Source: Nguyenibacter vanlangensis (lineage in GTDB: Bacteria > Pseudomonadota > Alphaproteobacteria > Acetobacterales > Acetobacteraceae). From it: a DNA stretch of 64,000 nucleotides. The notes beneath the pieces are model-generated. The model searched no databases. It saw only the letters and a list, made by a program, of their open reading frames with translations, and was not told the origin of the DNA. The stretch spans positions 4,295,501-4,359,500 of the forward strand of contig NZ_CP152276.1 in the NCBI RefSeq assembly GCF_038719015.1, given 5' to 3'. Position 1 is the stretch's first letter; each line of letters begins with the position of its first letter. Below, piece by piece: positions 4,344 through 31,100 of this stretch. A program made the translations under genes and the position numbers.

Positions 4344-7109
4344 TTACGGCATGGGGGCGGGGCCCTTGACGATCTCCGCCAGATCCCCCGGCCGAATCCA
4401 GGTGCGGAAGGCCGCCTGCACCGCCCCCGCCGTCATGCCGTAATAGGCTTTCGCCGCCAGGTCCGGCGTGTCCATGGGCAGGCCCAGCCCGATCAGGTGC
4501 AAATCCTCGGATGCGATCGAATCCAGGCTGGCCCGCGCCAGCGGCAGCCCGCGCAGCAGCGATGCCTTGGCCAGGGTCAGTTCGGCGTCGGACACGGGCT
4601 GGGCCTGCATGGCGGCGACGTCGCGGATGGCGGCATCGCGCGCCTTGCCGACCTTGTCCGGGTCGGCGCCGAAGCTGATGCTGTATCCGCCGCGATTGCG
4701 CGACCAGGAAAAATGGCTGCTGACCGAATAGACATAGCCCGTCCTGACCCGCAAATCGCGATAGAGCCGCGACGAAAATCCGTCGCCCAGGATCGCGTTG
4801 CCCACGCCCAGCGCGAAATGCGCCGGGTTGCTGGCGGTCAGGCCCAGGCTCTCGGCCAGGACCGCCGTGTCCTGCACGCTGGTGCGGTCGGGCACCTGGG
4901 TGCGCGACGCCCGGCTGTCCGGCCGGCGCGGCAGATCCACCGCCGGCGTCGGACCTGCCGGCCGCGTCCAGGCGCCGAAGGTCCGTCCAACCACCGCGCG
5001 CGCCTGCTCGGGCGTCACGTCGCCGGCCACCACGATCGTGGTCAGGTCGGGGCGATAGGCCGCCTGGTAGAAACCCCGCACATCGGCCAGGCGCAGCCCC
5101 ATGACATGGCGCGGGTCGGGCTGGCGCAGGCTCGGGTCGTCCGCGGGCGACACCGCCAGCTTCACCGCCCGGCCGAACAGGTAATCCGGCGTCTGCAACA
5201 GCCCGGCATAGGATTGCGCGGTCTGCATCCGCACCACCTGGAAGGCCCGCTCGGGAAAGGCCGGATGCAGTTCGTTATCCGCCAGCAACTGCATGCCGCG
5301 TTCGAAATCCGGGCTCAGCACCGCCAGGCTGAAGCCGGGGCCGGCGCTTTCGGTCGCCGCGATATCGTCCAGCGCCTTCTGGAAGGCCAGCCGGTCCAGC
5401 GATTGCGTGCCATAGCCGAACAGGTCGTCGGTAATCGCCGCCACCCCCTTCTGGCCTTTCGGCTCTTGCATGTCGGCATCCTGCCGCACCTGGCCATAGA
5501 CCTGCACCGTGTGGCTGACATGCGCCGGATGGACGATCAGCCGCAGCCCGTTGGGATAGGTGAACACGCTGGGTACGCCCACCGGCGGCGGCAGGGTCAG
5601 CGTCGCCAGCGCCGCATGCGCCCAGTCCGGCAACGTCACCGGATGGTCGGGAACGGCGGCGAAGGATTCCGATCCGCCGAAACCCTTGCCGGCGATCGGC
5701 TTGCCCGAATCCTCGGGGGTCAGCAGGGCGGTGACGGCACGGTCGGGGGCCAGGATCCGCCGCGCAAGGCGGTCGACGTCGTCCACCGTCACGCGCCGCA
5801 GCGCCGCCCCCAGCGCGTCGGGCGACTCCAGCCCCATCACCGCCAGCGCCTCGGACCAGGTCTCGGCCAGACCGCTGATGCTGTTGGCCGAGAAGCCCAG
5901 CTGCGCCAGTTCCTTGCGCCGCGCGGCCTCGACCAGTTCGGGCGGGACGCCCTTCCGGCGGATCTCGGCCAGGATCGCGTTCACCTCGGCCAGCAGCGGG
6001 GTGGGGTCCGTCGCCTTCGGATAGGCCGCGACCGCGATCCCCATCCCGGCCTCCGCCTTCGGCGCATATTCGAACCCGGCAAACAGCGCCTTGCCCGCCG
6101 GCACCAGGCCGTACAGCGCGCCGCGCTGGCTGCTCAGCACGTCGGACAGGATCTGCGCCGCGGCATAATCGGCGGCGGTCGCGCCGGGCATGCGCCACGC
6201 CACGGTCAGCAGCCCCACCGGATAATCGGTCGGGAAATGCAGGGTCTGCGCCGTCACCGGCCCGGGCCGCACCGCGCTGCGCGCCGGCAGGTCGCGGCGC
6301 GGAATGTCGCCGAACGCGGCGCGCGCCTCGGCGATGGCATGCGCCGGGTCCACATCGCCCGCAATGACCAGGATGGCGTTGTTGGGCGCGTACCATTTCT
6401 CATAGAACGCGCGCAGCAGCCCCGCATCCGTCTTGTCGAAGGACGGGCGCGTGCCCAGCGCGTCATGCGCGTAGGGCGTGCCGGCGAACAGGATCGCCTG
6501 CAGGCGCGACAGATACTGGTAGCTGGGGCTGGACAGGTCGCGTGCGACCTCCTGCTCGATCGCTCCGCGCTCCTTCTCCCAGTCCGCGGGCGCCAGGCTC
6601 AGCCCGCGCATGCGCAGCGCCTCGATCCGCAGCATCACGCCCAGATCCTCGGCCGGCGCGGTATAGAAATACTGGGTGACGTTCTCGGTGGTGTCGGCAT
6701 TGTAGCTGCCGCCCAACTGCGCGCCGATGGCCGCCAACTGGTCCTTGTCCAGTCCCGCGCTGCCGCGGAACATCATATGTTCCAGCGCGTGCGCCGTGCC
6801 GGGAAAACCCTGCGGCGCCTCGCTGGATCCGACCAGGTAGTTGATCTCCGTCGTCACCACCGGGGCCAGCCGGTCGCGGATCACCACCACGCGCAGCCCG
6901 TTGGGCAACGTCGCGCGCACGGCGGCGTCCGTCGGGGCTGCATCCACCGGAGCTGCATCCCCTGGGGCTGCATCCATCCGGGTCGCCGCGGGCGCTTTGT
7001 CCGGCCGGGCAGGGCCGGGCGGCGCGGCATGCGCCGGATCCGACGGCGGGGACGCGGCCAGCAGGGCCAGGGAAAGGCTTAACGCGGTGGTGGCCAAACG
7101 GGCGGTCAT
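4344..7109 (-). CDS. Secreted M16 family zinc metallopeptidase, fused two-half form
   Basis: A 921-residue insulinase/pitrilysin-family protein with a signal peptide (about residues 1-28). The N-terminal half carries the inverted zinc motif HxxEH as HALEH (H107, E110, H111) and, about 75 residues later, the downstream glutamate region EKERGAIEQEVARD. The C-terminal half (from about residue 500) repeats the M16 fold without HxxEH, as in other M16 proteins where it only shapes the chamber. It probably degrades peptides in the periplasm. I start it at 7109: earlier codons up to 7199 encode no signal peptide and run through a tandem repeat, while GAGGAG lies 13 bp upstream of 7109. An alanine/aspartate-rich linker after the signal peptide is made of a 15-bp repeat. 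Confidence 0.88.
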   Translation of the reverse strand: MTARLATTALSLSLALLAASPPSDPAHAAPPGPARPDKAPAATRMDAAPGDAAPVDAAPTDAAVRATLPNGLRVVVIRDRLAPVVTTEINYLVGSSEAPQGFPGTAHALEHMMFRGSAGLDKDQLAAIGAQLGGSYNADTTENVTQYFYTAPAEDLGVMLRIEALRMRGLSLAPADWEKERGAIEQEVARDLSSPSYQYLSRLQAILFAGTPYAHDALGTRPSFDKTDAGLLRAFYEKWYAPNNAILVIAGDVDPAHAIAEARAAFGDIPRRDLPARSAVRPGPVTAQTLHFPTDYPVGLLTVAWRMPGATAADYAAAQILSDVLSSQRGALYGLVPAGKALFAGFEYAPKAEAGMGIAVAAYPKATDPTPLLAEVNAILAEIRRKGVPPELVEAARRKELAQLGFSANSISGLAETWSEALAVMGLESPDALGAALRRVTVDDVDRLARRILAPDRAVTALLTPEDSGKPIAGKGFGGSESFAAVPDHPVTLPDWAHAALATLTLPPPVGVPSVFTYPNGLRLIVHPAHVSHTVQVYGQVRQDADMQEPKGQKGVAAITDDLFGYGTQSLDRLAFQKALDDIAATESAGPGFSLAVLSPDFERGMQLLADNELHPAFPERAFQVVRMQTAQSYAGLLQTPDYLFGRAVKLAVSPADDPSLRQPDPRHVMGLRLADVRGFYQAAYRPDLTTIVVAGDVTPEQARAVVGRTFGAWTRPAGPTPAVDLPRRPDSRASRTQVPDRTSVQDTAVLAESLGLTASNPAHFALGVGNAILGDGFSSRLYRDLRVRTGYVYSVSSHFSWSRNRGGYSISFGADPDKVGKARDAAIRDVAAMQAQPVSDAELTLAKASLLRGLPLARASLDSIASEDLHLIGLGLPMDTPDLAAKAYYGMTAGAVQAAFRTWIRPGDLAEIVKGPAPMP
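6934..6978. repeat. 15-bp tandem repeat x3 inside the M16 peptidase gene
   Basis: Three adjacent 15-bp units (6934-6948, 6949-6963, 6964-6978) sharing GGRGCTGCATCC. On the gene strand they encode five-residue units of the DAAPx type in the linker between signal peptide and catalytic domain. The reading frame is kept. Confidence 0.85.
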
Positions 7110-7162
7110 GATGCGCTGGGTACTCCTCGATGGCCCCGACAGCCTAGACCCGCGCGGCCTCC

Positions 7163-7201
7163 CTGAAAACCATGGCTGAAAACCATGACTGAAAACCATG
7201 G
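7163..7201. repeat. 13-bp tandem repeat x3, intergenic
   Basis: CTGAAAACCATGG (7163-7175), CTGAAAACCATGA (7176-7188) and CTGAAAACCATGG (7189-7201), followed by CTG. The array is in the 177-bp gap between the leftward M16 peptidase gene and the rightward serine hydrolase gene. Each unit contains an ATG on + and a CAT giving ATG on -, which creates false upstream start codons for the peptidase. No other feature is obvious in the gap. Confidence 0.9.
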
Positions 7202-7286
7202 CTGCCGCCTTCGGTCGCTGTCGTGATACCCTCGTCCTGCCGGATCATCCCGGCGTGCGGAACGACGCGGAACGAAAGGACACGCC

Positions 7287-8456: not shown

Positions 8457-8493
8457 GGACAGGGGCGGAGACACCCCCACCCCGCCGCCCCCG

Positions 8494-8979
8494 TTATTCC
8501 TGATCCGGGGCCGACGCCGCATTCAACTGGATATAGCGTTCGATGCCGATCTGCCGGATCAGGTCGAACTGCCGGTCCAGGAAATCCACATGCTCTTCCT
8601 CATTGTCCAGGATCTTCAACAGCAGATCGCGTGACACATAGTCCCGCACCGACTCGCAATAGGCGATCCCGTCGCGCAGATCCTGCAGCGCCTTCTCCTC
8701 CAATTTCAGGTCGCATTGCAGGATCTCCTCGACCGACTGCCCGACCAGGATCGTATTCAGCCGCTGCACGTTCGGCAGTCCGCCCAGGAACAGGATCCGC
8801 TCGATCAGCCAGTCGGCATGGCGCATCTCCTCGATCGACTCGTCATATTCATGCTTGCCCAGCCTGGTGACGCCCCAGTGGCGCAGGGTGCGGGCATGCA
8901 GGAAATACTGGTTGATCGCCGTCAGCTCGTTGGTCAGCTGGGTGTTCAGATGGTCGATGACTTGCGGATCCTTGATCAT
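8494..8979 (-). CDS. bfr: Bacterioferritin
   Basis: A 161-residue heme-containing ferritin that forms a 24-mer shell, oxidises Fe(II) and stores Fe(III). The ferroxidase ligands known from E. coli Bfr are at the same positions: E18, Y25, E51 and H54, and later the NEEEH segment supplying the E127/H130 pair. M52, the axial heme ligand, is present in EEMRHAD. It therefore looks like a fully active heme-binding subunit. It is transcribed away from bfd, and the shared 231-bp region contains a Fur-box-like sequence and a 13-bp repeat array. Iron control of both genes is a reasonable inference. Confidence 0.97.
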   Translation of the reverse strand: MIKDPQVIDHLNTQLTNELTAINQYFLHARTLRHWGVTRLGKHEYDESIEEMRHADWLIERILFLGGLPNVQRLNTILVGQSVEEILQCDLKLEEKALQDLRDGIAYCESVRDYVSRDLLLKILDNEEEHVDFLDRQFDLIRQIGIERYIQLNAASAPDQE

Positions 8980-9011
8980 CGCGACTCCTTGTGCGCTGCG
9001 GGCGGGGGCCC

Positions 9012-9063
9012 GGCCCTATCGATCGGCCCTATCGATCGGCCTCGCCGATTGGCCCCGTCGATC
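9012..9063. repeat. 13-bp tandem repeat x4 upstream of bfr
   Basis: Four contiguous 13-bp units: GGCCCTATCGATC twice exactly (9012-9024, 9025-9037), then GGCCTCGCCGATT (9038-9050) and GGCCCCGTCGATC (9051-9063). It starts 33 bp upstream of the bfr ATG, so it is probably in the bfr leader or promoter. Each unit carries an ATCGAT/CGATC palindromic core. Confidence 0.9.
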
Positions 9064-9151
9064 GGACAGACTCCCCCGGACGCGTAAAGTTGCCCGCCGG
9101 CCGCCCGCGGCGCCAGTGGCGGATCGCCCCTTCGTCCGGGATGTTAAGAAT

Positions 9152-9170
9152 GATATTGCGAATCATTATC
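9152..9170. promoter_or_regulatory. Fur-box-like iron operator between bfr and bfd
   Basis: The 19-mer GATATTGCGAATCATTATC matches 16 of 19 positions of the classical Fur box GATAATGATAATCATTATC. It lies 41 bp upstream of the bfd ATG, inside a local AT-rich stretch (9143-9180) that would also hold the bfd promoter. Fur-type control of bfd, and perhaps of divergent bfr, is inferred from the match and the iron-related genes on both sides. Confidence 0.8.
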
Positions 9171-9210
9171 ACTTATGGTTGAAGCAGCAGGCACAGAAAT
9201 GGGACCTTCC

Positions 9211-14912: not shown

Positions 14913-15742
14913 GCCATCGCTCCGTCCAGGTCTACCCGGCCGGGCGTGCCGCTCTCCGGCATGTCGCTCTCTGGCATGTTGCTCCGGCCGCGGCGGCTGG
15001 CCAGGGCAGCGCGCACGCGGCTTTCCATCACCGCGGCGCGCAGCCGCGCCACCACGATGGCGGCGAATCCCAGCGTAAAGCCCAGCGTGCAGACCAGCAG
15101 CGGCCACAGCATCGCCAGCGACATGGTCGGCGCGCCGGTCAGGGTAATGCTGTCGGGCTGGTGCAGCGTGTTCCACCATTGCACGCTGAATTTGATGATC
15201 GGCAGGTCGATCGCGCCCGCCAGGCCCAGGATCGCCGCCGCGCGATAGCCGCGCTGCGGCTCGTCGAACGCGCGGATCAGCGCGATATGGCCCAGATACA
15301 GGAAAAACAGCACCAGCACCGAGGTCAGGCGGGCATCCCATACCCACCAGGCGCCCCACATCGGCTTGCCCCACAACGACCCGGTGGCCAGGCAGACGGC
15401 GGTCACCGCGGCGCCCACCGGCCCGATCTCCACCGCCGCCAGGTCCGCCAGCGGGTGGCGCCACACCAGCGACAGCAGCGAACAGACCGCCAGCGCCATA
15501 TAGCCCGACGAGGCCAGCCACGCCGCCGGCACATGCACGTACATGATGCGCACGCTGTCGCCCTGCTGCCAGTCGGCGGGCGAGAAGAACAGCCCCCAGA
15601 CGATGCCGGCCGCCGACAGCGCCAGCGCCGGCCAGGTCAGCCAGGGCTGCAGGCGCGCGCCCAGCCGGAGAAACCGCCCCGGATTGGCATAGCGATGGAA
15701 GAAATTGCCCGTGCGTGCGGTCAGGCTCTGCGTGGCGTTCAA
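14909..15742 (-). CDS. ccmC: Heme transporter / heme-handling protein CcmC
   Basis: A 277-residue protein with six predicted membrane spans and the WWD signature as WGAWWVWDARLTS. Conserved heme-ligand histidines flank it, in YVHVPAAW and LGHIALIR. CcmC loads heme onto CcmE in the periplasm. It is the first gene of the leftward ccm operon. The C-terminal tail carries five-residue repeats (NMPES, DMPES, GTPGR) encoded by a 15-bp tandem array and is longer than in typical CcmC. No ccmA or ccmB lies upstream; the 234-bp region before it leads to divergent genes. Confidence 0.95.
   Translation of the reverse strand: MNATQSLTARTGNFFHRYANPGRFLRLGARLQPWLTWPALALSAAGIVWGLFFSPADWQQGDSVRIMYVHVPAAWLASSGYMALAVCSLLSLVWRHPLADLAAVEIGPVGAAVTAVCLATGSLWGKPMWGAWWVWDARLTSVLVLFFLYLGHIALIRAFDEPQRGYRAAAILGLAGAIDLPIIKFSVQWWNTLHQPDSITLTGAPTMSLAMLWPLLVCTLGFTLGFAAIVVARLRAAVMESRVRAALASRRGRSNMPESDMPESGTPGRVDLDGAMA
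14941..14985. repeat. 15-bp tandem repeat x3 in the 3' end of ccmC
   Basis: Three 15-bp units (14941-14955, 14956-14970, 14971-14985) of the form CBGGCRTGYYGCTCY. On the ccmC strand they encode NMPES/DMPES/GTPGR near the C terminus, beyond the last membrane helix. The frame is preserved. Confidence 0.85.
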
Positions 15743-16275: not shown

Positions 16276-16752
16276 ATGGCATATTGGCTGGTCAAGTCCG
16301 AGCCCGACGCGTTTTCCTGGGACCAGCAGGTCGCCAACAAGGTCGAGCCCTGGACCGGCGTGCGCAATTACCAGGCCAGGCGCAACATGATGGACATGCG
16401 CCTGGGCGATCGCGCCTTCTTCTATCATTCGAATATCGGCAAGGAGATCGTGGGCGTGGTGGAAATCGTCCGCGAAGCCTATCCGGACCCCACGTCCGGC
16501 GAATCCGCGTCCCCCGAGTCCGCGTCGGCCGGGTCCGCGTCGGCCAAGTCCGCGACCAAGGGCGGCGGCTGGATCTGCGTCGATGTGCGCGCGGTCGGGC
16601 CGATGCCCCGCCCCGTCACCCTGGCGGCGATCAAGGCCGATCCGGCGCTGGCCGACCTGGCCCTGGTCCGCCAGTCGCGCCTGTCGGTGGTGCCGGTGTC
16701 CGACGCGCACTGGGCGCACCTGTGCCGGATGGGCGGCTGGACCGCCGGCTGA
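16276..16752 (+). CDS. EVE domain protein
   Basis: A 158-residue EVE-domain (PUA-like) protein, similar to the THYN1/thymocyte nuclear protein family, which recognises modified bases in DNA or RNA. The hallmark segments are present: MAYWLVKSEPDAFSWDQ at the N terminus, WTGVRNYQARRNM, and RQSRLSVVPVSDAHW near the C terminus. The family normally has a short loop between VVEIVREAYPDPT and GGGWICVDVRA; here that loop is lengthened by four five-residue units (ESASP, ESASA, GSASA, KSATK) encoded by a 15-bp repeat. Downstream of the YCII gene, probably in the same transcript. Confidence 0.92.
   Translation: MAYWLVKSEPDAFSWDQQVANKVEPWTGVRNYQARRNMMDMRLGDRAFFYHSNIGKEIVGVVEIVREAYPDPTSGESASPESASAGSASAKSATKGGGWICVDVRAVGPMPRPVTLAAIKADPALADLALVRQSRLSVVPVSDAHWAHLCRMGGWTAG
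16501..16560. repeat. 15-bp tandem repeat x4 inside the EVE gene
   Basis: Four contiguous units with consensus RRGTCCGCGTCGGCC (16501-16515, 16516-16530, 16531-16545, 16546-16560). It encodes xSASx repeats in a loop of the EVE fold; units 2 and 3 differ by one base. Confidence 0.9.
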
Positions 16753-17305: not shown

Positions 17306-17355
17306 TCGGATCTCCTTGCATGCGGCCGTATGTAAAGGGCGGTCGTCTCCCCCAG

Positions 17356-17403
17356 GTCAACGTATGTCCGGGTCAACCTAATGTCTCGTCAACGCATGTC
17401 TCG
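17356..17403. repeat. 16-bp direct repeat x3 in a divergent intergenic region
   Basis: Three units starting at 17356, 17372 and 17388, each of the form GTCAACSYAWTGTC followed by two variable bases. Period 16 bp exactly. They lie between the hypothetical exported protein gene and the small ORF before ecsC, 51 bp upstream of the former and about 100 bp upstream of the latter. They could be stacked regulator sites; that is inference. Confidence 0.8.
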
Positions 17404-17623: not shown

Positions 17624-18471
17624 CCAATCGAACCGGGGGTGAGATCGCCCCGCTGGTGCTGGACGCCTCGGCCATCGCCGAATTGCAGAGCGCGCTGGAG
17701 CGCGTCGAATCGGGCCGCGGCGTGCTGGTGCGCCTCGCCGACCTGATGGGCGGGGCGGTGGGGCAGGCGGCCCGGCTTGGCCTGCGCGGCCTGGGCATGG
17801 CCCCCACGGTGCAGGCCAAGCTGAAGGGCATCGCCGAGGCCGCGATCTCGCGCGCCTTCGACGTCGCTATCACGGGCATGCGCGACTCGGCTCAGCCCCC
17901 GTCCTTGTCTCCGGCTCCATCCTCGGCCCCATCCCCAGCCCCGTCCTGGCGCGACCCGGCCATCCAGGCGGCGGTGGCCGTCTCCGGCGCGGTGGGCGGT
18001 TTCGCCGGCCTGCCCGGCCTGGTGCCCGACATCACCTTCACCACCCTGACCATCATGCGCGAAATCGCCCGCATCGCGCGGGAGGAAGGGGAAAGCCTCT
18101 CCGATCCCGACACCCATCGCGCCTGTCTCGAAGTGTTCGCCCTGCGCGCCTTCCCGGTCGGGGCGGCGGACGAGGAAAGCGAACTGGGCTATTTCTCGGC
18201 CCGCGCCATGCTGCGCGGCCGCCCGGTGGTCATGTTGGTGTCCGAGGTCGCGACCCATTACGGGCTGGGCCTGTCGCGCAAATTCGCGGTGCAGATGATG
18301 CCGGTGGCCGGCGCGCTGTGCGGCGCCTCGCTGAACGCCGCCTTCCTGTCGCATTACCGCGCCCTGGCCCGGGCGCATTTCACCATCCGGCGGCTGGAAC
18401 GCGAACACGGGCCTGAGGTCCGGCGCACCGCCGAACACCTCAAGGCCAACATGACCAGCGCCAGTTTCTGA
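17620..18471 (+). CDS. EcsC family protein
   Basis: A 283-residue protein of the EcsC family, named after a Bacillus gene next to an ABC transporter; its biochemical role is unknown. The family pattern is seen: an N-terminal helical part, a glycine-rich hydrophobic stretch (AAVAVSGAVGGFAGLPGLVP, about 120-140) with DITFTTLTIMREIARIA, and a conserved C-terminal FAVQMMPVAGALCGASLNAAF block. A Pro/Ser-rich linker built from a 12-bp repeat interrupts the N-terminal third. The start at 17620 has AGGAGGAA in front. It stands alone, away from any ABC transporter. Confidence 0.85.
   Translation: MTNRTGGEIAPLVLDASAIAELQSALERVESGRGVLVRLADLMGGAVGQAARLGLRGLGMAPTVQAKLKGIAEAAISRAFDVAITGMRDSAQPPSLSPAPSSAPSPAPSWRDPAIQAAVAVSGAVGGFAGLPGLVPDITFTTLTIMREIARIAREEGESLSDPDTHRACLEVFALRAFPVGAADEESELGYFSARAMLRGRPVVMLVSEVATHYGLGLSRKFAVQMMPVAGALCGASLNAAFLSHYRALARAHFTIRRLEREHGPEVRRTAEHLKANMTSASF
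17913..17948. repeat. 12-bp tandem repeat x3 inside ecsC
   Basis: GGCTCCATCCTC (17913-17924), GGCCCCATCCCC (17925-17936) and AGCCCCGTCCTG (17937-17948). They encode four-residue APSx-type units in the linker of the EcsC protein, in frame. Confidence 0.75.
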
Positions 18472-19831: not shown

Positions 19832-20551
19832 ATGACCAGCCAGGATTCGGGCCAGGATTCGGGGGACGGCGCCATGGCGGTCACGCCGGACCTGATGATC
19901 CGCGCCTATTCGGTCGGCCTGTTTCCCATGGCGCCCGATGCCGGGACCGACCATCTGGACTGGTACGATCCGCAGATGCGCGGCATCCTGCCGCTCGATG
20001 GGTTCCACGCGCCGCGCCGCCTGGTCCGCACCGTCCTGTCCGGCCAGTTCGACATCGTCGCCGACCGCGATTTCGAGGCGACGATCCGCGCCTGCGCCGC
20101 CCCGGCGCCGGGGCGCGAGACCACCTGGATCAACGACCGGATCATCCGCCTGTTCTGCGAACTGCATGCGCGCGGCCACGCCCATTCGGTCGAAACCTGG
20201 CAGGACGGCAGGCTGGTCGGCGGGCTGTACGGGGTCGCCATCGGCGGCGCCTTCTTCGGCGAAAGCATGTTCAGCCGCGCCCGCGACGCCTCCAAGGCGG
20301 CGCTGCTCTCGCTGGCGGCGCGGCTGCGCCTGGGCGGCTTCACCCTGCTGGACACCCAGTTCGGCACCAGCCATCTGGCCCAGTTCGGCGGGATCGAAAT
20401 ACCCGCCCGGCGCTACAAGCGGCGCCTGGCCCGGGCCCTGTCCGTGCCCGCCCACTGGCCCGACGACCGGGCCGCCGGCACCGCCGGCGCGATTCGCGAC
20501 GAAATGGCCGCCCTGCGCGGCGCATTTCGCACCTCGGACGGAAGCGGATAG
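19832..20551 (+). CDS. aat: Leucyl/phenylalanyl-tRNA--protein transferase
   Basis: A 239-residue Aat enzyme. It transfers Leu or Phe from tRNA to proteins with N-terminal Arg or Lys, marking them for ClpS/ClpAP degradation (N-degron pathway). Typical segments are YSVGLFPMAPD near the start, WYDPQMRGILPLDGFHAPRRL, and the conserved catalytic block GGLYGVAIGGAFFGESMFSR followed by LLDTQFGTSHLAQFGG. The ATG at 19832 has GGGGAG in front. The first ten residues include a duplicated QDSG from a 12-bp direct repeat (19841-19864) that is not part of the conserved domain. Confidence 0.95.
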   Translation: MTSQDSGQDSGDGAMAVTPDLMIRAYSVGLFPMAPDAGTDHLDWYDPQMRGILPLDGFHAPRRLVRTVLSGQFDIVADRDFEATIRACAAPAPGRETTWINDRIIRLFCELHARGHAHSVETWQDGRLVGGLYGVAIGGAFFGESMFSRARDASKAALLSLAARLRLGGFTLLDTQFGTSHLAQFGGIEIPARRYKRRLARALSVPAHWPDDRAAGTAGAIRDEMAALRGAFRTSDGSG

Positions 20552-20599: not shown

Positions 20600-21352
20600 A
20601 TGATCAACCTGATGCCGCGCCGCGCCGCCGGACGGCCCGGAATGATGGCCGGGGCGCTGCTCCTCGTGGGAATCGGGGCGGGAGTCGGGGCCGGAATCGC
20701 GCGGGCGGACGCCCAACCCGCGCCCGATTCGGCTCATTCCCCAACTCATCCCCCCTTGGCGCCGACCCGCGACGTGCAGGTCGCCTACAGCGTCCAGCCC
20801 GAAGGCGCGCCCGCGCCCAAAACCATCCAGGTCTGGTTCGCCGCCAATGGCGGCCTGATGCGCATCGACAGTCCCGAAGGCATGGGCGCGACCATCCTCG
20901 ACCGCGTCGCCCGCCAGGTGACGATCGTGCTGAACCGGCAGAAGGTCTATACGCGGCTGGACGCCGGCTCCGACATCCGCAATCCGTTCCTGCTGGACCT
21001 GTCCATGCAATATACCCGCAAGGGCGACGCACGCGTCGCGGACGTCGATTGCACCGAATGGGCTATCGTCTCCGGCCGCGGCTCGGCGACCGCCTGCGTC
21101 ACCGCCGACGGCGTCATCCTGCGCGAGGACGGGGTGGATGCCGAAGGCATGAAGGGGCGGCTGGTGGCCACCCGCGTCACCTACGCTCCCATCCCAGCCG
21201 GCACGTTCCAGCCGCCCGAGGGCTATCAGATGGTCACGCGGCATCGCGTCGCGCCAGGCCCCGCGGGTGCGGGGGCCGGCGGCACCGGACCGGGCGGCGA
21301 CGTCGCCCGGCCGGTGACCGGCGGCGCGATCCCGCCCGGCGCCGGCCAGTGA
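20600..21352 (+). CDS. Hypothetical exported protein, first of a coupled pair
   Basis: A 250-residue protein with a signal peptide (about residues 1-38, ending GIARADA). It has a beta-rich domain of the kind seen in DUF4412-like periplasmic proteins, with VQVAYSV, IDSPEGMGATILDRVARQVT and MQYTRKGDARVADVDCTEW. Two cysteines (in VDCTEW and TACVTADG) could form a disulfide. The C-terminal 40 residues are Gly/Pro-rich and probably disordered. Its stop overlaps the GTG start of the next gene, whose product has the same layout (YSV start, lipid- or ligand-binding-like beta domain, Cys pair). Function unknown. The Shine-Dalgarno is GAAAGAAGGAAA. Confidence 0.78.
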   Translation: MINLMPRRAAGRPGMMAGALLLVGIGAGVGAGIARADAQPAPDSAHSPTHPPLAPTRDVQVAYSVQPEGAPAPKTIQVWFAANGGLMRIDSPEGMGATILDRVARQVTIVLNRQKVYTRLDAGSDIRNPFLLDLSMQYTRKGDARVADVDCTEWAIVSGRGSATACVTADGVILREDGVDAEGMKGRLVATRVTYAPIPAGTFQPPEGYQMVTRHRVAPGPAGAGAGGTGPGGDVARPVTGGAIPPGAGQ

Positions 21353-22002
21353 TCCATCCGACGATCGGCGCCCGGACCGCGGGACGCTTCGCCGGCCTGC
21401 TGCTGGCGGCAGCCTTGTTTCCCACGCCCCTCCCCATGTCCCTCCCGGCGCGGGCTGCGACAGTTCCTGGCGCGGACACCTCTGGCGCGGACGCGTCCGC
21501 CGCACCGTTCGTCACTCCGCAATGCGACGTGGACGTGACCTACAGCGTCGCGGCGCCCGATCCGGCGGTGCCCGCCATCCGCCAGCGCATGCGCTGGTCC
21601 AGCGCAACCCTGCGCCAGCGGGTCGATCCCGCCGGGTCGGCGACCTACATGCTCACCGACTATCGGGCCCGGACCCTGACGGTCATCGACCTCGCGCGCA
21701 ACGTCCGCACGACCATCCCGGCCCCGGGCTCCGCCGTCACCCGGCCCGGACAGCGCGCGCCCGGCAGTTGGATCCACGGGGCGACGATGCTGGTGGCCGG
21801 TCAGCCCTGCACCGCCTGGCAGACCGCCGACACCGACGGCCAGGCCAGCGAGGTCTGCTACAGCGACGATGGCGTGATGTTGCAGGCCACCCGGAACGGC
21901 CACGTCATGGTCCGTGCCGAAACCGTGCGCCGTACGGCCCAGCCCGACGCGGTCTTCGCGATTCCGGCGGGACTCAGGGACCTGCCCGCCGCCCACCCCT
22001 GA
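21349..22002 (+). CDS. Hypothetical exported protein, second of a coupled pair
   Basis: A 217-residue protein with GTG start; GTGA overlaps the previous stop and no clear Shine-Dalgarno is seen, so translation is probably coupled. The signal peptide spans about residues 1-37. The mature part parallels the upstream product: VDVTYSVAAPDP, then IDLARNVRTTIP, a Cys in QPCTAWQTAD and another in EVCYSDDGVMLQATRNG. This suggests an ancient tandem duplication, though identity is low by eye. The linker after the signal peptide contains VPGAD/TSGAD from a 15-bp repeat (21463-21492). Function unknown; a paired periplasmic sensor or binding role is only a guess. Confidence 0.75.
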   Translation: MIHPTIGARTAGRFAGLLLAAALFPTPLPMSLPARAATVPGADTSGADASAAPFVTPQCDVDVTYSVAAPDPAVPAIRQRMRWSSATLRQRVDPAGSATYMLTDYRARTLTVIDLARNVRTTIPAPGSAVTRPGQRAPGSWIHGATMLVAGQPCTAWQTADTDGQASEVCYSDDGVMLQATRNGHVMVRAETVRRTAQPDAVFAIPAGLRDLPAAHP

Positions 22003-22516: not shown

Positions 22517-22569
22517 TCGCAAGGGCCTTCCCGGGAAGGTTCCCGGGAAGGCGCTCAGGGGAAAGATGT

Positions 22570-23084: not shown

Positions 23085-26000
23085 TCACTCCCCGACCGGA
23101 CCGACCAGGCGGGTGAAGGCCGCCCGCACCGCGTCCGCGCGCGCCTCCATCTGCTGCAACGCCTCCGCGATCGTTGTCGCCCCCATCTCGCGCAGCAGGA
23201 TCTCGCGGGTCGCGGCGGGCATGGCGGCCGCCGGATCGGCGGGCAGGGCGGTGCCGAACAGGATTCGCAGCATGCTCTGCACGCTGCGCCAGGCCCGGTC
23301 GGCCTCTTCCAGCATACGCCCCGTGCCGCGGTCCAGCATCCCCTGCCGCACCAGGCGACGCAGCGCCTTGCGCGTGTTCGGGTCGCGCGCCGCCGCGTCG
23401 CCGGCCACCAGTTGCAGCGCCTGGGCGATGAATTCCACATCCATCAGCCCGCCGGCCCGATGGCGGATATCCCATGGCCCTTGCGGCGGCAATTCCCGCG
23501 CCACCCGTTCGCGCATCGCCCGCGCATCCTCCAGGATCGCCGCCCGCGTGGCGCCGCGCCGCCCGTCCAGCGCCGCCCCGATCGCGCCGCGCAGCGCGCG
23601 GACCAGCGCCGGCGGCCCGGCCACCACCCGCGCCCGGGTCAGCGCCATGCGCTCCCAGGTCCAGGCGCTTTCGGCGTGATAGCGGCGAAACGCCCCCAGC
23701 GACAGCGCCACCGGTCCTTTCGACCCGGACGGCCGCAGCCGCATATCGACCTCGTAAAGCGGTCCCTCCGGCCCCGGCGCGGTCAGCGCGCCGATGAAGC
23801 CGTGCGCCAGCCGGACGAAATACTGCCCCGCTGGCACCGATCGCGGCGCCAGGCCGCCATCCGCGCCCCCGTCTCCCGCACCATTATACGACCGACCCGG
23901 GGCGGGCGCGTCCACCACGCTGTCGGTCACGTCGTCCGGGTGGTCGAAGACCAGCATCAGGTCCAGGTCCGACCCCAGCATCATCTCGCGCGATCCGGCC
24001 TTGCCCAGCGCCACCACCGCCATGGCGCCGCCCGGCACGCGGCCATAGCGGCGGACATGCTCGGCCGTCACGCGGGCCAGCAGCCCGCGCATCACCGCGT
24101 CGGCCAGTTCGGTGCGCGCGCGGCTGGCGGCATCGACCCCGATCCGGTGCTCCAGCCGCGCGCAGGACAGGCGGAATTCCTCGCCCCGTACCAGCCCGCG
24201 CAGGATCGGCAGCACCTGCTCGGTCGACGCCGCCTGCGCCAGGTGCTGCCGCACCAGGCCCGCGGCCGGAATGTCGGCCGCGCCGTCCTGGTCGGCGCCC
24301 AGCAGCCCGTCCAGCGCGGCCGGGGTCTCCGCCAGATGGTCGGCCAGGAAGGGCGACCCGTCCAGGATCGTGGCGATCCGGTCGATCAGCGCCGGATTGC
24401 GGTCCAGCAGGGTCAGGAACTGGACGCCCGCCCATTGCCGGGCCAGCATGGCATCGAACCGCCGCAGGCAGGTCAGCGGGTCGCGCCGCGCGCCGAACCG
24501 CGCCAGGATCTCCGGCAGCAGCCGGCGCAGCAGGTTCCGCGCCCGGTCCGAGCGCAGCGCCCGCAGCCGGTTGCCGCTCCAGCGCTGCAGCAGGCTCACC
24601 GCGTCGGCGATGTCGGCATCGGCAAATCCGGCGGCGCGCAGATGCTCGGCCAGGTCCTCGGCATCGGGATCGACCGACCGCCCGGCGCCCCCGGGCTCGG
24701 CGAACTGGCCTTCGAAGATCCGCCGCGAATCCCGCATGATCGGCAGCATCGTCCCCGCCAGGGCGCGGCCGTTCTCCTCGGCCATGAACACGGCGAAGGC
24801 GTCGAAGGCTTCCCGCGTGGCCGGCAGCTTGTGGGTCTGGTGGTCGGCCTGCATTTGCAGCCGGTGCTCCGCCCGCCGCAACATGCGATAGGTCCGCGCC
24901 AGGCTGTCGCCCCGCGGGCGGTTCAGCACGCCGGCCCGCACCAGCCGGCGCAGCGCGCCCAGCGTAGTCGGGTCGCGCAGTTCGGGCCGGCGACCGCCCC
25001 AGACCAGTTGCAGCGCCTGGGCCACGAACTCGACCTCGCGAATCCCGCCCTGTCCCAGTTTCAGGTCGTGGCCCATCAGCCAGTCGCGCGCAAGGCGCGG
25101 GTCGTGTACCATCCGCTCGCCCAGGCGCGACAGGCCGGCATGGCCGGCATTGCGGTGGCGGTCGATTCGCGCCTTCATGTCGTGCAGGTCGTCGATGACG
25201 GCGAAATCGAGGTGCCGCCGCCAGACGAAGGGCGCGATCGCGCGCAGGAAACGCCGCCCGGCCGTCACGTCGCCCGCCACCGGCCGCGCCTTGGTCATCG
25301 CCGCGCGCTCCCAGGTCTGGCCCAGGCTTTCGTAATAGGTGATCGCGGCGGGGAACGAGATGGCCGGCGGCGTCGCCGACGGGTCGGGACGCAGGCGCAG
25401 ATCGGTGCGAAACACGTATCCGTCGGCGTCCCGCGCTTCCATCAGCCCGACAAGATCGCTAGTCATGCGGACGAAGATCCGGCGCAGATCCTCATGCCCG
25501 GCATGACAGGCCGGATCGTACAGCACGATCAGGTCGATATCCGAGGAGTAGTTCAGTTCCCGCGCCCCCAGCTTCCCCATCGCCAGCACGACGAAGCCGC
25601 TGCCGCGCGCCGGATGGCGGGGATCGGGCAGGACGATCTGCCCCGTATCGTGGGCTACGCGCAGCAGATGCCTGACCGCCGCCTCCAGCGCCGATTCCGC
25701 CAGGCGGCTCAGCGCCAGCGTCACCTGCTCCAGCGTCCACACCCCGCCGATATCGGCCAGGGCGATGGCCAGCGCCGCCTGCCGCTTGGCCGCGCGCATC
25801 GTCGCCGCGATGTCGGCGCGCGCATCGCGCGGCGACAGGGCGGCCAGGCTGTCCAGCACCGCGCCCATCGCCCGGTCCGGCCCTTCGGCCAGCAGCCGTG
25901 CGAACGGTACGGGGTCGCGGCGCGCCAGCCCGGCCAGATACGGGCTGTTGCCGCCCAGCATGTCCAGCAGCGGCGCCACCCCCGCGGCGCGCAGCAGCGC

Positions 26001-26240
26001 CGCGTCCAGCCCGTGCTCGCGCCACAGCTCCGCGACATCCTCGCGCAGCAGCGCGGCGCCGCGCGGATCGGCCGGCGCCGGCCAGGCGCGATCGGTCCAG
26101 GGACGATCCAGAGAAGCGCGATTCACGGGGGCGCGATCCATCCGGGCATGATCAGTCCGGGGGGGGCTGGCCCGACCCTGCTCGGCCGCCGGCATTTCCT
26201 CGGCGCGCCGGCGGGCATGGGCGGTCTTCGATCGGGGCAT
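23085..26240 (-). CDS. glnE: Bifunctional glutamine synthetase adenylyltransferase/deadenylase
   Basis: A 1051-residue GlnE. It adenylylates GlnA to switch it off under nitrogen excess and removes AMP when nitrogen is short, under control of PII. Two nucleotidyltransferase domains are visible: the N-terminal deadenylase with SSDIDLIVLYD (about residue 232) and the C-terminal adenylylase with GSDLDLMLVFD (about residue 758), each followed by its helical PII-response domain (LGQGGIREVEFVAQALQLV and HRAGGLMDVEFIAQALQLV). It is about 60-70 residues longer than usual. The extra N terminus includes five-residue xDRAx units from a 15-bp repeat, so the true start could be downstream of 26240. Confidence 0.95.
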   Translation of the reverse strand: MPRSKTAHARRRAEEMPAAEQGRASPPRTDHARMDRAPVNRASLDRPWTDRAWPAPADPRGAALLREDVAELWREHGLDAALLRAAGVAPLLDMLGGNSPYLAGLARRDPVPFARLLAEGPDRAMGAVLDSLAALSPRDARADIAATMRAAKRQAALAIALADIGGVWTLEQVTLALSRLAESALEAAVRHLLRVAHDTGQIVLPDPRHPARGSGFVVLAMGKLGARELNYSSDIDLIVLYDPACHAGHEDLRRIFVRMTSDLVGLMEARDADGYVFRTDLRLRPDPSATPPAISFPAAITYYESLGQTWERAAMTKARPVAGDVTAGRRFLRAIAPFVWRRHLDFAVIDDLHDMKARIDRHRNAGHAGLSRLGERMVHDPRLARDWLMGHDLKLGQGGIREVEFVAQALQLVWGGRRPELRDPTTLGALRRLVRAGVLNRPRGDSLARTYRMLRRAEHRLQMQADHQTHKLPATREAFDAFAVFMAEENGRALAGTMLPIMRDSRRIFEGQFAEPGGAGRSVDPDAEDLAEHLRAAGFADADIADAVSLLQRWSGNRLRALRSDRARNLLRRLLPEILARFGARRDPLTCLRRFDAMLARQWAGVQFLTLLDRNPALIDRIATILDGSPFLADHLAETPAALDGLLGADQDGAADIPAAGLVRQHLAQAASTEQVLPILRGLVRGEEFRLSCARLEHRIGVDAASRARTELADAVMRGLLARVTAEHVRRYGRVPGGAMAVVALGKAGSREMMLGSDLDLMLVFDHPDDVTDSVVDAPAPGRSYNGAGDGGADGGLAPRSVPAGQYFVRLAHGFIGALTAPGPEGPLYEVDMRLRPSGSKGPVALSLGAFRRYHAESAWTWERMALTRARVVAGPPALVRALRGAIGAALDGRRGATRAAILEDARAMRERVARELPPQGPWDIRHRAGGLMDVEFIAQALQLVAGDAAARDPNTRKALRRLVRQGMLDRGTGRMLEEADRAWRSVQSMLRILFGTALPADPAAAMPAATREILLREMGATTIAEALQQMEARADAVRAAFTRLVGPVGE
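26086..26160. repeat. 15-bp tandem repeat x5 in the 5' end of glnE
   Basis: Five units of 15 bp (26086, 26101, 26116, 26131 and 26146), sharing GCGCGATC-N-RTCCRG. On the glnE strand they encode five-residue units such as LDRPW, TDRAW and MDRAP in the non-conserved N-terminal extension. Confidence 0.8.
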
Positions 26241-26293
26241 GATCCTTCATCCGGCCTGCGCGGGGGCCCGATGGCGGCCGCGCGCGGCGCACC

Positions 26294-29200
26294 GTGGACA
26301 CGGCCATGACGCGCGGTCAAGGCCCCTCTCCCCCCGCTCCAGACGCCGCCCCTGCGCGCCGGGGCCGCCGGCGCGTCCTGTTCGCGGCGGCGGTGCTGCT
26401 CGTCGTGCCGCTGGCCGCCGCCGCCGGGCTGGCGGTGCGCCTGGCCATGGGCCCACTGGACGTCACGCCGCTCGCCCGGCTGGTCCTGCCCGCGCGCGTC
26501 CTGTCGGGCGGGGCGGGGCAGCCGCCGGTCCTGCGGCTGGATGTCGGGCAGGTCCGCGTGGGCTGGGACGGCCTGCATCGCGGCCTGGCCGCGCCGCTGG
26601 ACGTCACGGCCACCGATCTGCGCCTGCTGCGCCCCGACAATGTCGTGGCCGACCAGATCGGCGCCGCGCGGCTGGTGCTGAATGCCGACGCGCTGTGGCA
26701 TGGCGGCATCGCCCCGCGCATGCTCGTCCTCTCCGGGGCCCGGCTGGCCCTGCGCCGCGCGTCCGACGGGTCGGTCGGGCTGGATACCGGCCCGTTCCGC
26801 GCGGTTGCCACCCGGGGGGCGGCGGCCCTGGCGCTCGACATCCGCTTCTTCGACCGTCTGGTCGTCACCGACGGCGCGGTCACGCTCGGCGACCAGCGGA
26901 CGGCCACGTCCTGGCGCCTGGACGGCCTGGCCGCCGATCTGCGCCGGCTGCGCATCGGCCTGGCGCGGGGCGTCACCGGCACTGCCGCGTTCGGCCTGTC
27001 GGGCCCGGGGCTGCGGGCCCGGCTGCGGGCCGACGGCACGCGTGACGGAACCGCCCTGTCCTGGCACGTCGCCGGCACGCCGGTCGCCCCGCGTGCCTTC
27101 GCCCCCTTCCTGCCGCAGCTCGCGGCCATCGACCTGCCGCTCGGCTTCGACGCCACGATCCGCCTGATCGCCGGCCCGCACCGCCTGCTGGCCCGCCCGC
27201 GATCGGCCGTCCTGACCCTGCATGGCGGGGCGGGGCAGATTTCGACCGGCCCAGGTCCAGGTCCAGGTCCAGGTCCAGGTTCAGGTCCGGGCCCCGGTCC
27301 GACCCCGGGCACCACGGGCACGATCCGGTTCGACGATCTCCAGGCCCGCCTGTCCGCCGATTTCGGCCCCCGATCGAGCGGCCTCCTATCCGGCCCGGCG
27401 CGGATCCGGCTGGACATGCTCCAGGCCCGCCTGCATCCGTCCGACCGCCCCGATGCCCATCCGGACGTCCCCGCGGCGGCCGATCCCGTGCTCCAGGCCG
27501 ACGGCATGCTCGACGTCGCCGGCCCCACCCGCCCCGGCCTGATCCATTTTGGCCCGTCCCGTCCCGGCCCGCCCGGCCCCAGACTGCGCGCCAGCCTGCA
27601 CGCCAGCCTGTCCGACCTGGATTTCGCCCGGCTCGGCGCGTTCTGGCCGGCGGGGCTGGCCAAGGGGGCGCGTGCCTGGGTCACGCGCAACATCACCGCC
27701 GGCACCGCGCACGGGCTGCATGTCGCGGCGACCCTGGCCAACGATACAGGCGCCAACGATGCCGGCTGGGGCGGCCTGCGCCTGCGCACGCTGGGCGGCG
27801 GGGTCACGGGCACCGGCCTGGAGGTGCACTGGCTGCGGCCGATCGCGCCGATGCGCGGCGTGGACGCCACGCTGGCCATCGACGGGCCGGACGCGCTGTC
27901 GATCCGCTTCTCCGGCGGCACCCAGTCCGTCGATCGCGCCGGCCGCAACGTGGACGCCACCGGCATCGGCCGCATCGCGATCGGCAACGGGTCAATGCGG
28001 ATCACCGGCCTGCAGGCCAAGGACCAGATCGGCGACATCGCCGCCACATTGCACGGCGATCTGCCCGACATCATGGCCCTGCTGGCCGAACCGCGGCTGA
28101 ACCTGCTGTCGCGCCACCCCCTGGGTTTCAGCGGACCCTCGGGGCGGGCCCAGGTCGCGCTGCATCTGGTCCTGCCGCTGGACGACCGGGTCGACATCGC
28201 GGATATCCGCCTGTCCAGCCACGCGGACCTCGCGCAGGTGCATCTCGGCAATGTCGTGCTGAACCGCGCGCTCGATGACGGCGCGCTCACGCTCGACGCC
28301 ACGACCCGGGGCCTGACCCTGGCCGGCACCGCAATCCTGGGCGGCATGCCGGCGACGCTGCGCTACGTGATGGATTTCCGCAAGGACGCGGCGACCAGCG
28401 AATCCGCGCAGGTGCGCGCCCACCTCACGCCGGATGTCGCCGACCGGCTCGGCTACGCGGTCGGGCAGCGTTTCGCCGGCAGCGCGGATCTCGACGTGGC
28501 GTACAGCCGCCTGGCCGACGGCACGGGCCAGATCGCGCTGGACCTGGACCTGGCCGACGCCGCCCTGACGATACCGGTCTGGTCCAAGCCGCGCGGCCAG
28601 GCCGCCCATGCCTCGGTCCGGATCGGGCTGGCGCAGGGCCGCCTCGCCAGTGTCGAGGCGATTCACGCCACCGGCCCCGACCTGCAGCTCGACGGGCGGG
28701 CCAGCGTCGTGGACGGGCAGGCCCGCACCCTGGTGCTGCGCGGCTTTCGCATCGGCCGCTCGCACGGCGATGCGACCATCGGCCTGCCGCGGCACGCGAC
28801 CGACCCGGTGCGGGTCGCCGTCCAGGCTCCGGTGCTGGATCTGTCGCCGCTGCTGCATCCCGGCCCGGCGCCGGCCGCGCCGAAACCGGGTCCCTCCTAT
28901 CACATGCCGTCCGCCGCCACCGGCCGCGTCCAGGGGCCGCCGGGGCGAAGCTGGCTGATCGATGCCGACGTGCCCACCCTCTATTACGCCCCCGACGGGG
29001 CGCTGGCCGGCGTTCATGCCCATGTCGAGGATAACGGCATCCGCGTCACGCGGCTGCGCTTCTCGATGGCCGGCCCGTCCCCCGCCACCGCCATCCTCAC
29101 CCCGCAGCCCGACGGGCGGCATCTCCGGGCCAGCGTCCAGGACCTGGGGCTGATGCTGCAGAAGCTGGGCGTGACGCAGCAATTCTCCGGCGGCGCGACG

Positions 29201-29695: not shown

Positions 29696-29741
29696 AGCGT
29701 CGCCCGGACGGATCGGGGCAGGGAAGGGAGGATAGACGATC

Positions 29742-31100
29742 ATGTCCGACGGATGGGAAGGCGGCCTGCTGGCGCTGGGCCTCGCGGTCCTGCTGCTGCT
29801 GGCGATCCTGCTGGCCCTGCTGCTGCGCCGCCGCGCCCGCCCGGAAGATGGCGGGCGCGGCGGCGAGGGCGACCTGCTCGCCCGCCTCTATGTCATGATC
29901 GAACGCGAAGCCGCCGCCCGCGCCACGGACAGCGAGGCCCAGCGCGCCCGGCTGGCCGAAATCGAGCGCGTGCTGGCGGCCCGACTGGACCAGTCCCGGG
30001 CCGACGTCGCCGACCGGCTGGGCGCGATCGCCCACGCCATCACCCGCGACCTCGCCGATGCCCGCATCCACCAGGGCGAGGCCCTGCGCGAGATGGCCGA
30101 AGCCTCCGCCCGGCAGATCGAGGCGATCCGCGCCACCGTCGACGAACGCCTGCACGAGGCCGTGGAACGCCAGATGCAGACCTCGTTCCAGCGGGTGCTG
30201 GAACAATTCACCGCCATGCAGAAGGCGATGGGCGAGGTCACGGCCATGACGGCCCAGATCGGCGACCTCAAGCGCCTGTTCTCCAACGTCAAGACGCGCG
30301 GCGGCTGGGGCGAGGCGCAGTTGCGCGCCATCCTGGACGACGTGCTGCCGCCCGGCGCCTACCAGGCGAATTGCCGCCTGCGCGAAGGCAGCGCCGAAAT
30401 CGTGGAATTCGCGGTGCGCATGCCGGTCCGCGCCGCGTCGCCCCCCCTGCTCGCCATCGATTCCAAATTCCCGACCGAGGCCTATGAACGCCTGCTGGAC
30501 GCCGTCGAGCGCGTGGACCCCGAGGCCGAGCGCGCCGCCCGCCGCGCGCTGGAGACCACCCTGCGGATCGAGGCGCGCAAGATCGCGGCCAAATATATCG
30601 TGCCCCCGGTCACGGTCGAATTCGCCGTGCTCTACCTGCCCACCGACGGGCTCTATGCCGAAATCGCCCGCATTCCCGGGCTGGTGGACGAAATCGGGCG
30701 CACCAGCCGGGTCATCGTGATGGGGCCGGGCCTGCTGCCGGCCATGCTGCGCACGATTCATCTCGGCTACGTCACCATGGCGCTCGAGGACCGGACCGAC
30801 GGCATCGCCCGCCTGCTGGGCGCCACCCGGCAGGAGATGCTGCGGATGGACGGCGTGCTGGAACGGCTGGCCCGCAACGCCTCGGCCATGTCCTCGTCGA
30901 TCGACGAGGCACGGCGCCGCACGCGGGTCGTGACCCGGCAACTGCGCGGACTGGACGGCGTCGATACGCTGTCCGATACCGCCCGGGCCGCCCCGACCCC
31001 GGAACCGGACCAGGAACCGGACCAGCAACCGGACCAGCAACCGGGCGAGGCCGGCGGGGATGCATCCGGCGGGGGTGAACACGAATTTAGTGGTGCGTGA
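29742..31100 (+). CDS. rmuC: DNA recombination protein RmuC
   Basis: A 452-residue RmuC homologue. An N-terminal membrane anchor (about residues 8-27) is followed by a long coiled coil (about 40-170) and the conserved nuclease-like domain. The domain starts at GDLKRLFSNVKTRGGWGE and contains LAIDSKFPTEAYERLL and FAVLYLPTDGLYAEI. RmuC limits recombination at inverted repeats in E. coli, and related proteins act in phage defence. The C-terminal tail carries EPDQ repeats from a 12-bp array. Its TGA overlaps a GTG (31097) in the frame of the next gene, and the response regulator follows at once. Confidence 0.92.
   Translation: MSDGWEGGLLALGLAVLLLLAILLALLLRRRARPEDGGRGGEGDLLARLYVMIEREAAARATDSEAQRARLAEIERVLAARLDQSRADVADRLGAIAHAITRDLADARIHQGEALREMAEASARQIEAIRATVDERLHEAVERQMQTSFQRVLEQFTAMQKAMGEVTAMTAQIGDLKRLFSNVKTRGGWGEAQLRAILDDVLPPGAYQANCRLREGSAEIVEFAVRMPVRAASPPLLAIDSKFPTEAYERLLDAVERVDPEAERAARRALETTLRIEARKIAAKYIVPPVTVEFAVLYLPTDGLYAEIARIPGLVDEIGRTSRVIVMGPGLLPAMLRTIHLGYVTMALEDRTDGIARLLGATRQEMLRMDGVLERLARNASAMSSSIDEARRRTRVVTRQLRGLDGVDTLSDTARAAPTPEPDQEPDQQPDQQPGEAGGDASGGGEHEFSGA
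31002..31046. repeat. 12-bp tandem repeat in the 3' end of rmuC
   Basis: GAACCGGACCAG twice exactly (31002-31013, 31014-31025), CAACCGGACCAG (31026-31037) and a partial CAACCGGGC (31038-31046). It encodes EPDQ-EPDQ-QPDQ-QPG in the acidic tail, in frame. Confidence 0.9.

Follow-up and report, generated by a model that had tools for sequence, protein, structure and literature searches.

A size class of 12- to 16-bp tandem duplications in Nguyenibacter vanlangensis that enters genes mainly in frame

A 64,000-bp stretch of the Nguyenibacter vanlangensis genome (contig NZ_CP152276.1, positions 4,295,501 to 4,359,500; hereafter the window) contains short head-to-tail arrays in nine genes, among them genes for an M16 peptidase, an EVE-domain protein, and RmuC. 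With a probability of roughly 0.78, we regard such arrays as survivors of an ongoing, genome-wide head-to-tail duplication of 12 to 16 bp, mostly 12 to 14 bp in noncoding DNA, that is filtered by reading frame. A single process behind the arrays is suggested by their one size distribution, which is described below together with the comparison of two strains, the likely birth of the first copy, and the individual loci.

Duplicated units fall between 12 and 16 bp

We tallied tandem near-copies, allowing up to one mismatch per unit and dropping overlapping events, at each lag across 934 kb of the 4.75-Mb single-contig genome. This sample comprised the window, 39 evenly spaced stretches, and 6 adjacent ones. 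Units with an internal period of up to 6 or 7, depending on the count, were excluded beforehand, and dinucleotide, Markov, and codon shuffles served as controls. A home-made gene finder divided the sample into 610 kb of coding and 323 kb of noncoding DNA; because it calls only about two-thirds of the sample coding, part of the noncoding DNA is genic.

In noncoding DNA, the count is 5 at lag 11 (versus 5.8 in shuffled sequence), 15 at lag 12 (versus 2.0), 38 at lags 13 to 16 (versus 0.8), and 3 over lags 17 to 30 (versus 0.0). The 53 noncoding events at 12 to 16 bp are distributed over the successive lags as 15, 16, 14, 6, and 2. Genes, in contrast, hold 74 events at lag 12 (versus 16.8 in codon shuffles) and 16 at lag 15 (versus 0.2), with only 4 (versus 0.8) at lags 13, 14, and 16 together and 3 (versus 0.0) at lags 17 to 30. 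In-frame units thus make up 90 of the 94 coding events of 12 to 16 bp, about 17 of the 90 being expected by chance, and the difference between coding and noncoding lags is significant with and without lag 12 (Fisher p = 4e-14 and 2e-6, respectively). The size window is thus 12 to 16 bp, and within genes it is mainly the in-frame sizes that persist. The same pattern is obtained with exact matches of at least 11 bp and with exact full copies. Over all DNA, 152 events lie at 12 to 16 bp, 89 at lag 12 and 63 at lags 13 to 16.

The dinucleotide, Markov, and codon shuffles rule out chance or base composition as the source of these events. Nor do codon-shuffled sequences carry such arrays at an equal frequency, the outcome that would have counted against the proposal made in a first-pass annotation of this DNA. 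Selection on the protein, or the amino acid and codon bias of GC-rich genes, could in principle create coding repeats without any special DNA process, and the codon shuffles attribute a part of the lag-12 count to chance. We nevertheless consider this very improbable, since noncoding DNA has this size window too, including the noncodon lengths 13 and 14, and since near-perfect DNA copies at lag 15 far exceed the codon shuffles. The excess also persists after the exclusion of internally periodic units, which shows that the units are not themselves short repeats. Among arrays with units of 11 to 17 bp, the 70 strongest have apparently unrelated sequences, as judged by eye.

Tandem Repeats Finder (TRF; score of at least 50, period of at least 9) detected 26.6 arrays per 100 kb of the window, whereas dinucleotide shuffles contained 3.1. 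Elsewhere, in the first N. vanlangensis sample, the density was 21.2 in the GC-rich part and 12.5 in the GC-poorer part, and congeners ranged from 2.5 to 30. The lag events likewise are denser in GC-rich than in GC-poorer stretches of N. vanlangensis (21.9 versus 10.2 per 100 kb). The annotation's statement that all coding units are multiples of three is nearly accurate, holding for 104 of 115 coding arrays (TRF score of at least 50). As for the five-residue repeats that it stressed, units of 12 bp occur no less often than those of 15 bp. Eight of the sampled stretches (L123, L127, L128, L130 to L133, and L137) have a GC content of 0.56 to 0.63, compared with 0.65 to 0.71 in the other stretches measured alongside, and are probable acquired islands.

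Duplications differ between two strains

A close strain (G013; rpoB 99% identical, assembly of 1310 contigs) was aligned to N. vanlangensis after dropping blocks below 95% identity or shorter than 300 bp, which left 173.7 kb at an identity of at least 95% with 2026 substitutions. The comparison leaves out the window's own arrays between 4 and 33 kb. Among 40 scored of 560 candidates, the 14.3- to 32.3-kb part of the window was not found in this strain, and the 4- to 14-kb part was not searched for; the 39.5- to 63.0-kb part aligned with zero indels of 4 bp or more.

Fourteen indels of at least 4 bp were recorded, measuring 4, 4, 6, 12, 13, 14, 14, 14, 15, 16, 16, 24, 49, and 50 bp. One of the 14-bp indels had been split by the alignment into 11 and 3 bp and was joined for the count, and the 24-bp indel represents two 12-bp units in an array. 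Below this size, 52 indels of 1 bp, 8 of 2 bp, and 10 of 3 bp (the split 3 included) were present. With the split indel joined, none of 7 to 11 or 17 to 23 bp occurs in the 173.7 kb. Nine of the 14 thus measure 12 to 16 bp or twice 12 bp, and seven of these nine are clear tandem copies. Tandem duplication of 12 to 16 bp is therefore active at present. In addition, 5 of the 18 N. vanlangensis duplications that lie in aligned DNA differ in length between the strains, in line with the copy-number changes that the first-pass annotation had expected of sister strains; the other 13 are of equal length.

Several points weigh against this reading of the indels. One of the 14-bp indels is not tandem, and one of the 16-bp indels is alike at only 12 of 16 positions. 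Two of the stretches, L127 and L159, had been picked as array-rich; without both, six indels of 12 to 16 bp remain, five of them tandem. Compared with the window, a large share of the aligned DNA has a lower GC content. Moreover, all five duplications that differ are longer in N. vanlangensis, the genome that was searched for them, and two of the five lie in a stretch picked for its arrays.

An assembly or sequencing artefact could be suspected in one single-contig genome. Such an origin is extremely unlikely given that the separate assembly of the close strain retains 13 of the 18 duplications at equal length and that related species show the 12- to 16-bp class too. The two longest strain indels, of 49 bp (L253, near 2466) and 50 bp (L258, near 11893), are not tandem. 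The 20 longest contigs of the close strain (L203 to L222) have a GC content of 0.58 to 0.66.

The size class in congeners and other genomes

The standing class of 12- to 16-bp duplications is at least genus-wide. After subtraction of the shuffled counts, the coding density at 12 plus 15 bp is 12.0 per 100 kb in N. vanlangensis, 4.7 in ten congeners with Ku (Ku+), and 5.3 in congener G004, so that the congener density is about 0.4 times that of N. vanlangensis, which is about 2.5 times richer. Strain indels of N. vanlangensis are also more concentrated in size than the indels between congener pairs.

Other comparisons count against the main reading. The chance-subtracted noncoding density is 15.5 per 100 kb in N. 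vanlangensis and 17.5 in the ten Ku+ congeners (48 kb), with 5.3 in G004. A mutator unique to N. vanlangensis is thus unsupported by the noncoding density, although its genes are richer and its strain indels more concentrated. Among 12 close congener pairs (identity of at least 88%; less similar pairs and blocks of 400 bp or shorter were dropped), indels are not concentrated at 12 to 16 bp. Tandem indels measure 5, 6, 15, and 17 bp among G001, G002, and G011, and 6, 9, and 15 bp between G003 and G007, there within 32 mostly nontandem indels; G004 and G005, which are 99.7% identical, have zero such indels. Tandem indels in these pairs are often 5 to 9 bp long; lengths of 12, 15, and 17 bp occur once each.

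Four further genomes or replicons served as controls, each with a 200-kb sample. Lags 13 to 16 yielded 0 events in Escherichia coli K-12 and in Sinorhizobium meliloti pSymB, 5 in R. jostii pRHL1, and 7 in T. mobilis pTM3, compared with the 63 in 934 kb of N. vanlangensis.

Birth of the first copy

If duplications were born by slippage on pre-existing short repeats, the match between copies should overrun the unit by several bases. The 13 exact two-copy duplications in noncoding DNA overrun it by 0, 1, 2, and 5 bases in 7, 4, 1, and 1 cases, respectively. Their mean overrun of 0.85 bases, versus 0.74 expected, indicates no excess of microhomology, and duplication birth therefore appears unlike ordinary slippage in this set. 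The first-pass annotation had proposed one genome-wide slippage or insertion process filtered by frame. The size class, the frame filter, and the activity bear this out, but a birth by slippage is unsupported in noncoding DNA.

Ordinary slippage on existing short repeats may still make and expand the arrays, the size window then being what slips well. We hold this for a possible but doubtful explanation of the class. In its favor, copy numbers change within arrays between the strains (14-bp and 2×12-bp units in L127, 16-bp units in L258), and coding duplications overrun more often: the 22 exact two-copy cases range from 0 to 9 bases, and 9 of them overrun by at least 3. When one mismatch is allowed, the mean overrun rises to 1.2 to 1.8 bases in the larger two-copy classes, above the expected 0.74. 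These overruns count against a birth free of homology. Part of the coding overrun is probably due to remnants of third copies and to the window rule used, and slippage, older third copies, or repeats at the protein level may contribute to coding duplications. Against slippage stand the lack of a microhomology excess in noncoding DNA and the near-chance level there of 8- to 11-bp units, which would be expected to slip at least as well. Exact noncoding copies number 6 (versus 5.6 in shuffled sequence) at lag 8, 3 (versus 1.2) at lag 9, 2 (versus 0.4) at lag 10, and 0 (versus 0.2) at lag 11. No shared border motif was evident by eye in 38 two-copy events.

The noncoding pattern is consistent with a staggered break whose ends were filled in and joined, or with a ligated repair patch. 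In the first case, the initial copy would arise without existing repeats, when two single-strand interruptions 12 to 16 nucleotides apart are filled in and rejoined. Once two copies exist, ordinary slippage would gain or lose further ones. Selection would then purge units that shift the frame or fall into folded cores, so that linkers, loops, and termini keep those of 12 and 15 bp. However, nick spacing alone leaves the missing 8- to 11-bp units unexplained.

In the second case, a patch of fixed size, made during repair or replication, would be strand-displaced yet escape removal and be ligated in, thereby duplicating its own length. UvrABC excises an oligonucleotide of 12 to 13 nucleotides, and the primer made by primase is another candidate patch. 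The edges of the class at 12 and 16 bp resemble the ruler of an enzyme, and microhomology would be unnecessary, as in the noncoding set. We rate a patch as somewhat less probable than slippage. The flap-nuclease domain of PolA (PF02739) is present in 13 of 14 genus genomes, N. vanlangensis included, and is missing only from the fragmented G013 assembly; its loss is ruled out as a cause. That wild-type cells possess a dedicated duplication ruler, either Ku-LigD or a ligated patch, that copies 12 to 16 bp free of homology, keeps seeding tandem repeats across the genome, and lengthens linkers by steps of four or five residues is a tentative proposal only.

A further way to create duplications without existing repeats is an altered topoisomerase I. 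According to the report on E. coli topA R168C (PMC6954433), this allele makes de novo tandem duplications of 2 to 19 bp independently of existing repeats. The TopA protein of N. vanlangensis (L151) keeps Arg at the equivalents of R35 and R168 and Tyr at that of Y319, which rules out a mutator allele of this kind. The E. coli range also begins at 2 bp, whereas the sizes from 7 to 11 bp are empty among the strain indels here. An altered topoisomerase I is accordingly an improbable source.

Ku-LigD as a candidate for break joining

The joining of staggered breaks could be performed by a Ku-LigD end-joining island found in most of the genus. In N. vanlangensis, two Ku genes flank a full-length LigD gene (G000:C1:1463553-1467694). 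Ku together with full LigD is present in 10 of 12 congeners; in the remaining two, G006 and G008, Ku was not matched and LigD was matched in part only. TRF arrays of the orthologous region are scarcest in these two genomes, which have 12 in 80 kb, whereas four sisters have 65 in 160 kb (binomial p = 4e-4). Within the family, four other genera with Ku show 19 coding events at lag 12 versus 3.8 in shuffled sequence (144 kb), while four GC-rich genera without Ku show 6 versus 4.0 (112 kb). The noncoding densities of the same eight genera are 32.0 and 10.2 per 100 kb, respectively, with 5 events each.

Other data weaken the case for this step. G006 and G008 are sister species of one clade, and the sisters used for comparison are not independent. 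The strict count in these two genomes gives 2 noncoding events in 8 kb, or 22.5 per 100 kb. In loci of 49 diverse genomes (49 of 80 loci), the density changes little with Ku, being 5.3 per 100 kb where it is present (7 genomes) and 3.4 where it is not (42 genomes). Finally, the pSymB sample has zero events at 13 to 16 bp in 200 kb, and its host S. meliloti is presumably Ku+. Ku as the cause is thus a lead, favored by the TRF counts in the genus and by the eight family genera, but not by the strict counts nor outside the family. We consider a staggered-break step carried out by Ku-LigD possible, though rather doubtful. The natural loss of Ku in G006 and G008 could take the place of a knockout in comparisons.

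Relation to known systems

Bacterial minisatellites, variable-number tandem repeats, and prokaryotic satellites (Subirana and Messeguer 2019, PMC6749651) likewise form head-to-tail arrays, many of them in genes, where lengths that are multiples of three predominate. In contrast to those satellites, the noncoding units of N. vanlangensis form a narrow 12- to 16-bp class, and repeats here come as short, dispersed arrays. The 12-, 14-, and 16-nucleotide satellites of Burkholderia described there derive from microsatellites of 6 to 8 nucleotides, whereas the units counted here do not.

The topA R168C duplications (Bachar et al. 2019, PMC6954433) share independence from existing repeats with the noncoding set only. 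They span 2 to 19 bp; those of N. vanlangensis span 12 to 16 bp, and R35 and R168 of its TopA are intact. The same article states that the formation of tandem repeats from nonrepeating sequence "remains unknown". Nonhomologous end joining of staggered breaks (Schimmel et al. 2021, PMC8355091) produces tandem duplications through fill-in of protruding ends and depends on Ku80. That system, however, concerns mouse cells, overhangs of 43 to 50 nucleotides, and CST-Pol alpha primase, while the present one concerns a bacterium and 12 to 16 bp, with the role of Ku being a lead. Within the same family, Acetobacter pasteurianus IFO 3283 has hypermutable repeats in genes (Azuma et al., cited in PMC4686929), although the citing passages name five genes and mention no genome-wide size window.

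Among the titles and abstract openings listed by searches of an open-access library, none described a 12- to 16-bp tandem duplication class in wild-type bacteria. In-frame coding repeats and repeat-independent duplication are thus already known; what appears to be new, as judged from those searches, is a sharp 12- to 16-bp class in a wild-type bacterial lineage. The birth step becomes measurable in this lineage because the narrow class is seen between strains and in noncoding DNA that is not filtered by frame. It also suggests a simple route by which conserved enzymes could gain short disordered linkers.

Coding arrays of the window

All nine coding arrays listed in the first-pass annotation were recovered with the positions and units that it gave, as was their placement in termini or linkers. 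When aligned around each array with orthologs from 12 congeners (9 for rmuC), each of the nine proved to lie in a linker, loop, or terminus where every one of the 9 to 12 orthologs is different. None of the orthologs has the same array, so that identical arrays in relatives, the other outcome that would have counted against the annotation's proposal, were not seen among these congeners. Five of the arrays, those of the M16 peptidase, the EVE-domain protein, the secreted protein, RmuC, and YhdP, are insertions relative to all congeners; in ccmC, glnE, ecsC, and aat, the array occupies a terminus or linker that is already variable among them. Pfam matches identify the M16 peptidase, the CcmC-type cytochrome c assembly protein, EcsC, GlnE, YhdP, and RmuC, and the EVE domain was likewise confirmed.

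Each array was also scored, without gaps, against 18 control lags in the window. Those in the M16, ccmC, EVE, glnE, rmuC, and yhdP genes have 0.00 equals per control lag, although those in the M16, ccmC, and glnE genes are each matched by 2 other places in the window at their own lag. The arrays in ecsC (0.17 equals per control lag, 9 other places at its own lag) and aat (0.33 and 11) are modest.

Five of the arrays have 15-bp units. On the minus strand, a threefold array (RMDAAPGDAAPVDAAP) lies at 6934..6978, between the signal peptide and the domain of the M16 peptidase; the open reading frame spans 4344-7199, its true start is probably at 7109, preceding a signal peptide, and the site is gapped in 12 of 12 congeners. 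The threefold array at 14941..14985 (minus strand) lies at the C terminus of the CcmC-type protein, a tail that differs in 12 of 12 congeners. At 26086..26160 (minus strand), a degenerate fivefold array (37 of 60 lag matches; 2.5 copies by TRF) lies in glnE (23085-26240), within its N-terminal extension, which is variable. Congener G009 carries its own, different short repeats in the glnE linker and the ccmC tail (L117 and L118), which may be arrays of independent origin at shared permissive sites.

The fourth, a fourfold array (ESASPESASAGSASAKSATK) at 16501..16560 (plus strand), encodes a 20-residue insertion in the EVE-domain protein (16276-16752). The extra residues, 76 to 95, lie in a loop that connects two strands; the domain is otherwise conserved. 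Among 31 aligned sequences, taken from the 120 listed among 8000 matches, only P0003 has the array; in a small number of remote homologs, this site carries a longer loop that is unrelated. The predicted structure has a predicted local distance difference test score below 50 at residues 86 to 96, and the repeat loop is accordingly predicted to be disordered. A weak twofold 15-bp array at 21463..21492 (plus strand), near the N terminus of a secreted-looking protein (21349-22002), has 11 of 15 matches and 9.1 equals per control lag, which is chance level when taken alone.

Units of 12 bp, all on the plus strand, occur in three genes. A threefold array at 17913..17948 lies in an internal linker of the EcsC-family protein that is variable and, in some congeners, longer. 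Two copies encode QDSGQDSG at 19841..19864, in the N terminus of the gene labeled aat by the first-pass annotation (putative; start at 19832). A fourfold array (EPDQEPDQQPDQQPGE) at 31002..31049 lies in the C-terminal tail of RmuC; all 9 congeners with a match lack this array. The eightfold 6-bp array at 27254..27301 (plus strand) encodes a Gly-Pro repeat in the YhdP/AsmA-like protein, an insertion missing from 12 congeners; this array, through slippage of a short unit, and those with longer units are probably ordinary.

Intergenic arrays of the window

The first-pass annotation listed four intergenic arrays with units of 13, 13, 16, and 24 bp. Both 13-bp arrays are clear relative to the control lags, the 16-bp array is weak, and an intergenic 24-bp array was not found in the window, where the sole TRF row of period 24, at 33824-33873, falls within a gene for an RND pump. 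The imperfect 16-bp array (2.9 copies, 17355..17400) has 11.6 equals per control lag in the ungapped test and is at chance level alone. The perfect 13-bp array at 9011..9041 has 2.4 copies. The other, CTGAAAACCATGG, extends over 3.2 copies at 7163..7204, upstream of the M16 gene, and contributes one ATG per copy, thereby offering start codons in different frames. A palindromic 12-bp unit, TTCCCGGGAAGG, is present twice at 22528..22551, in the intergenic region just behind a small gene, and has a terminator-like appearance.

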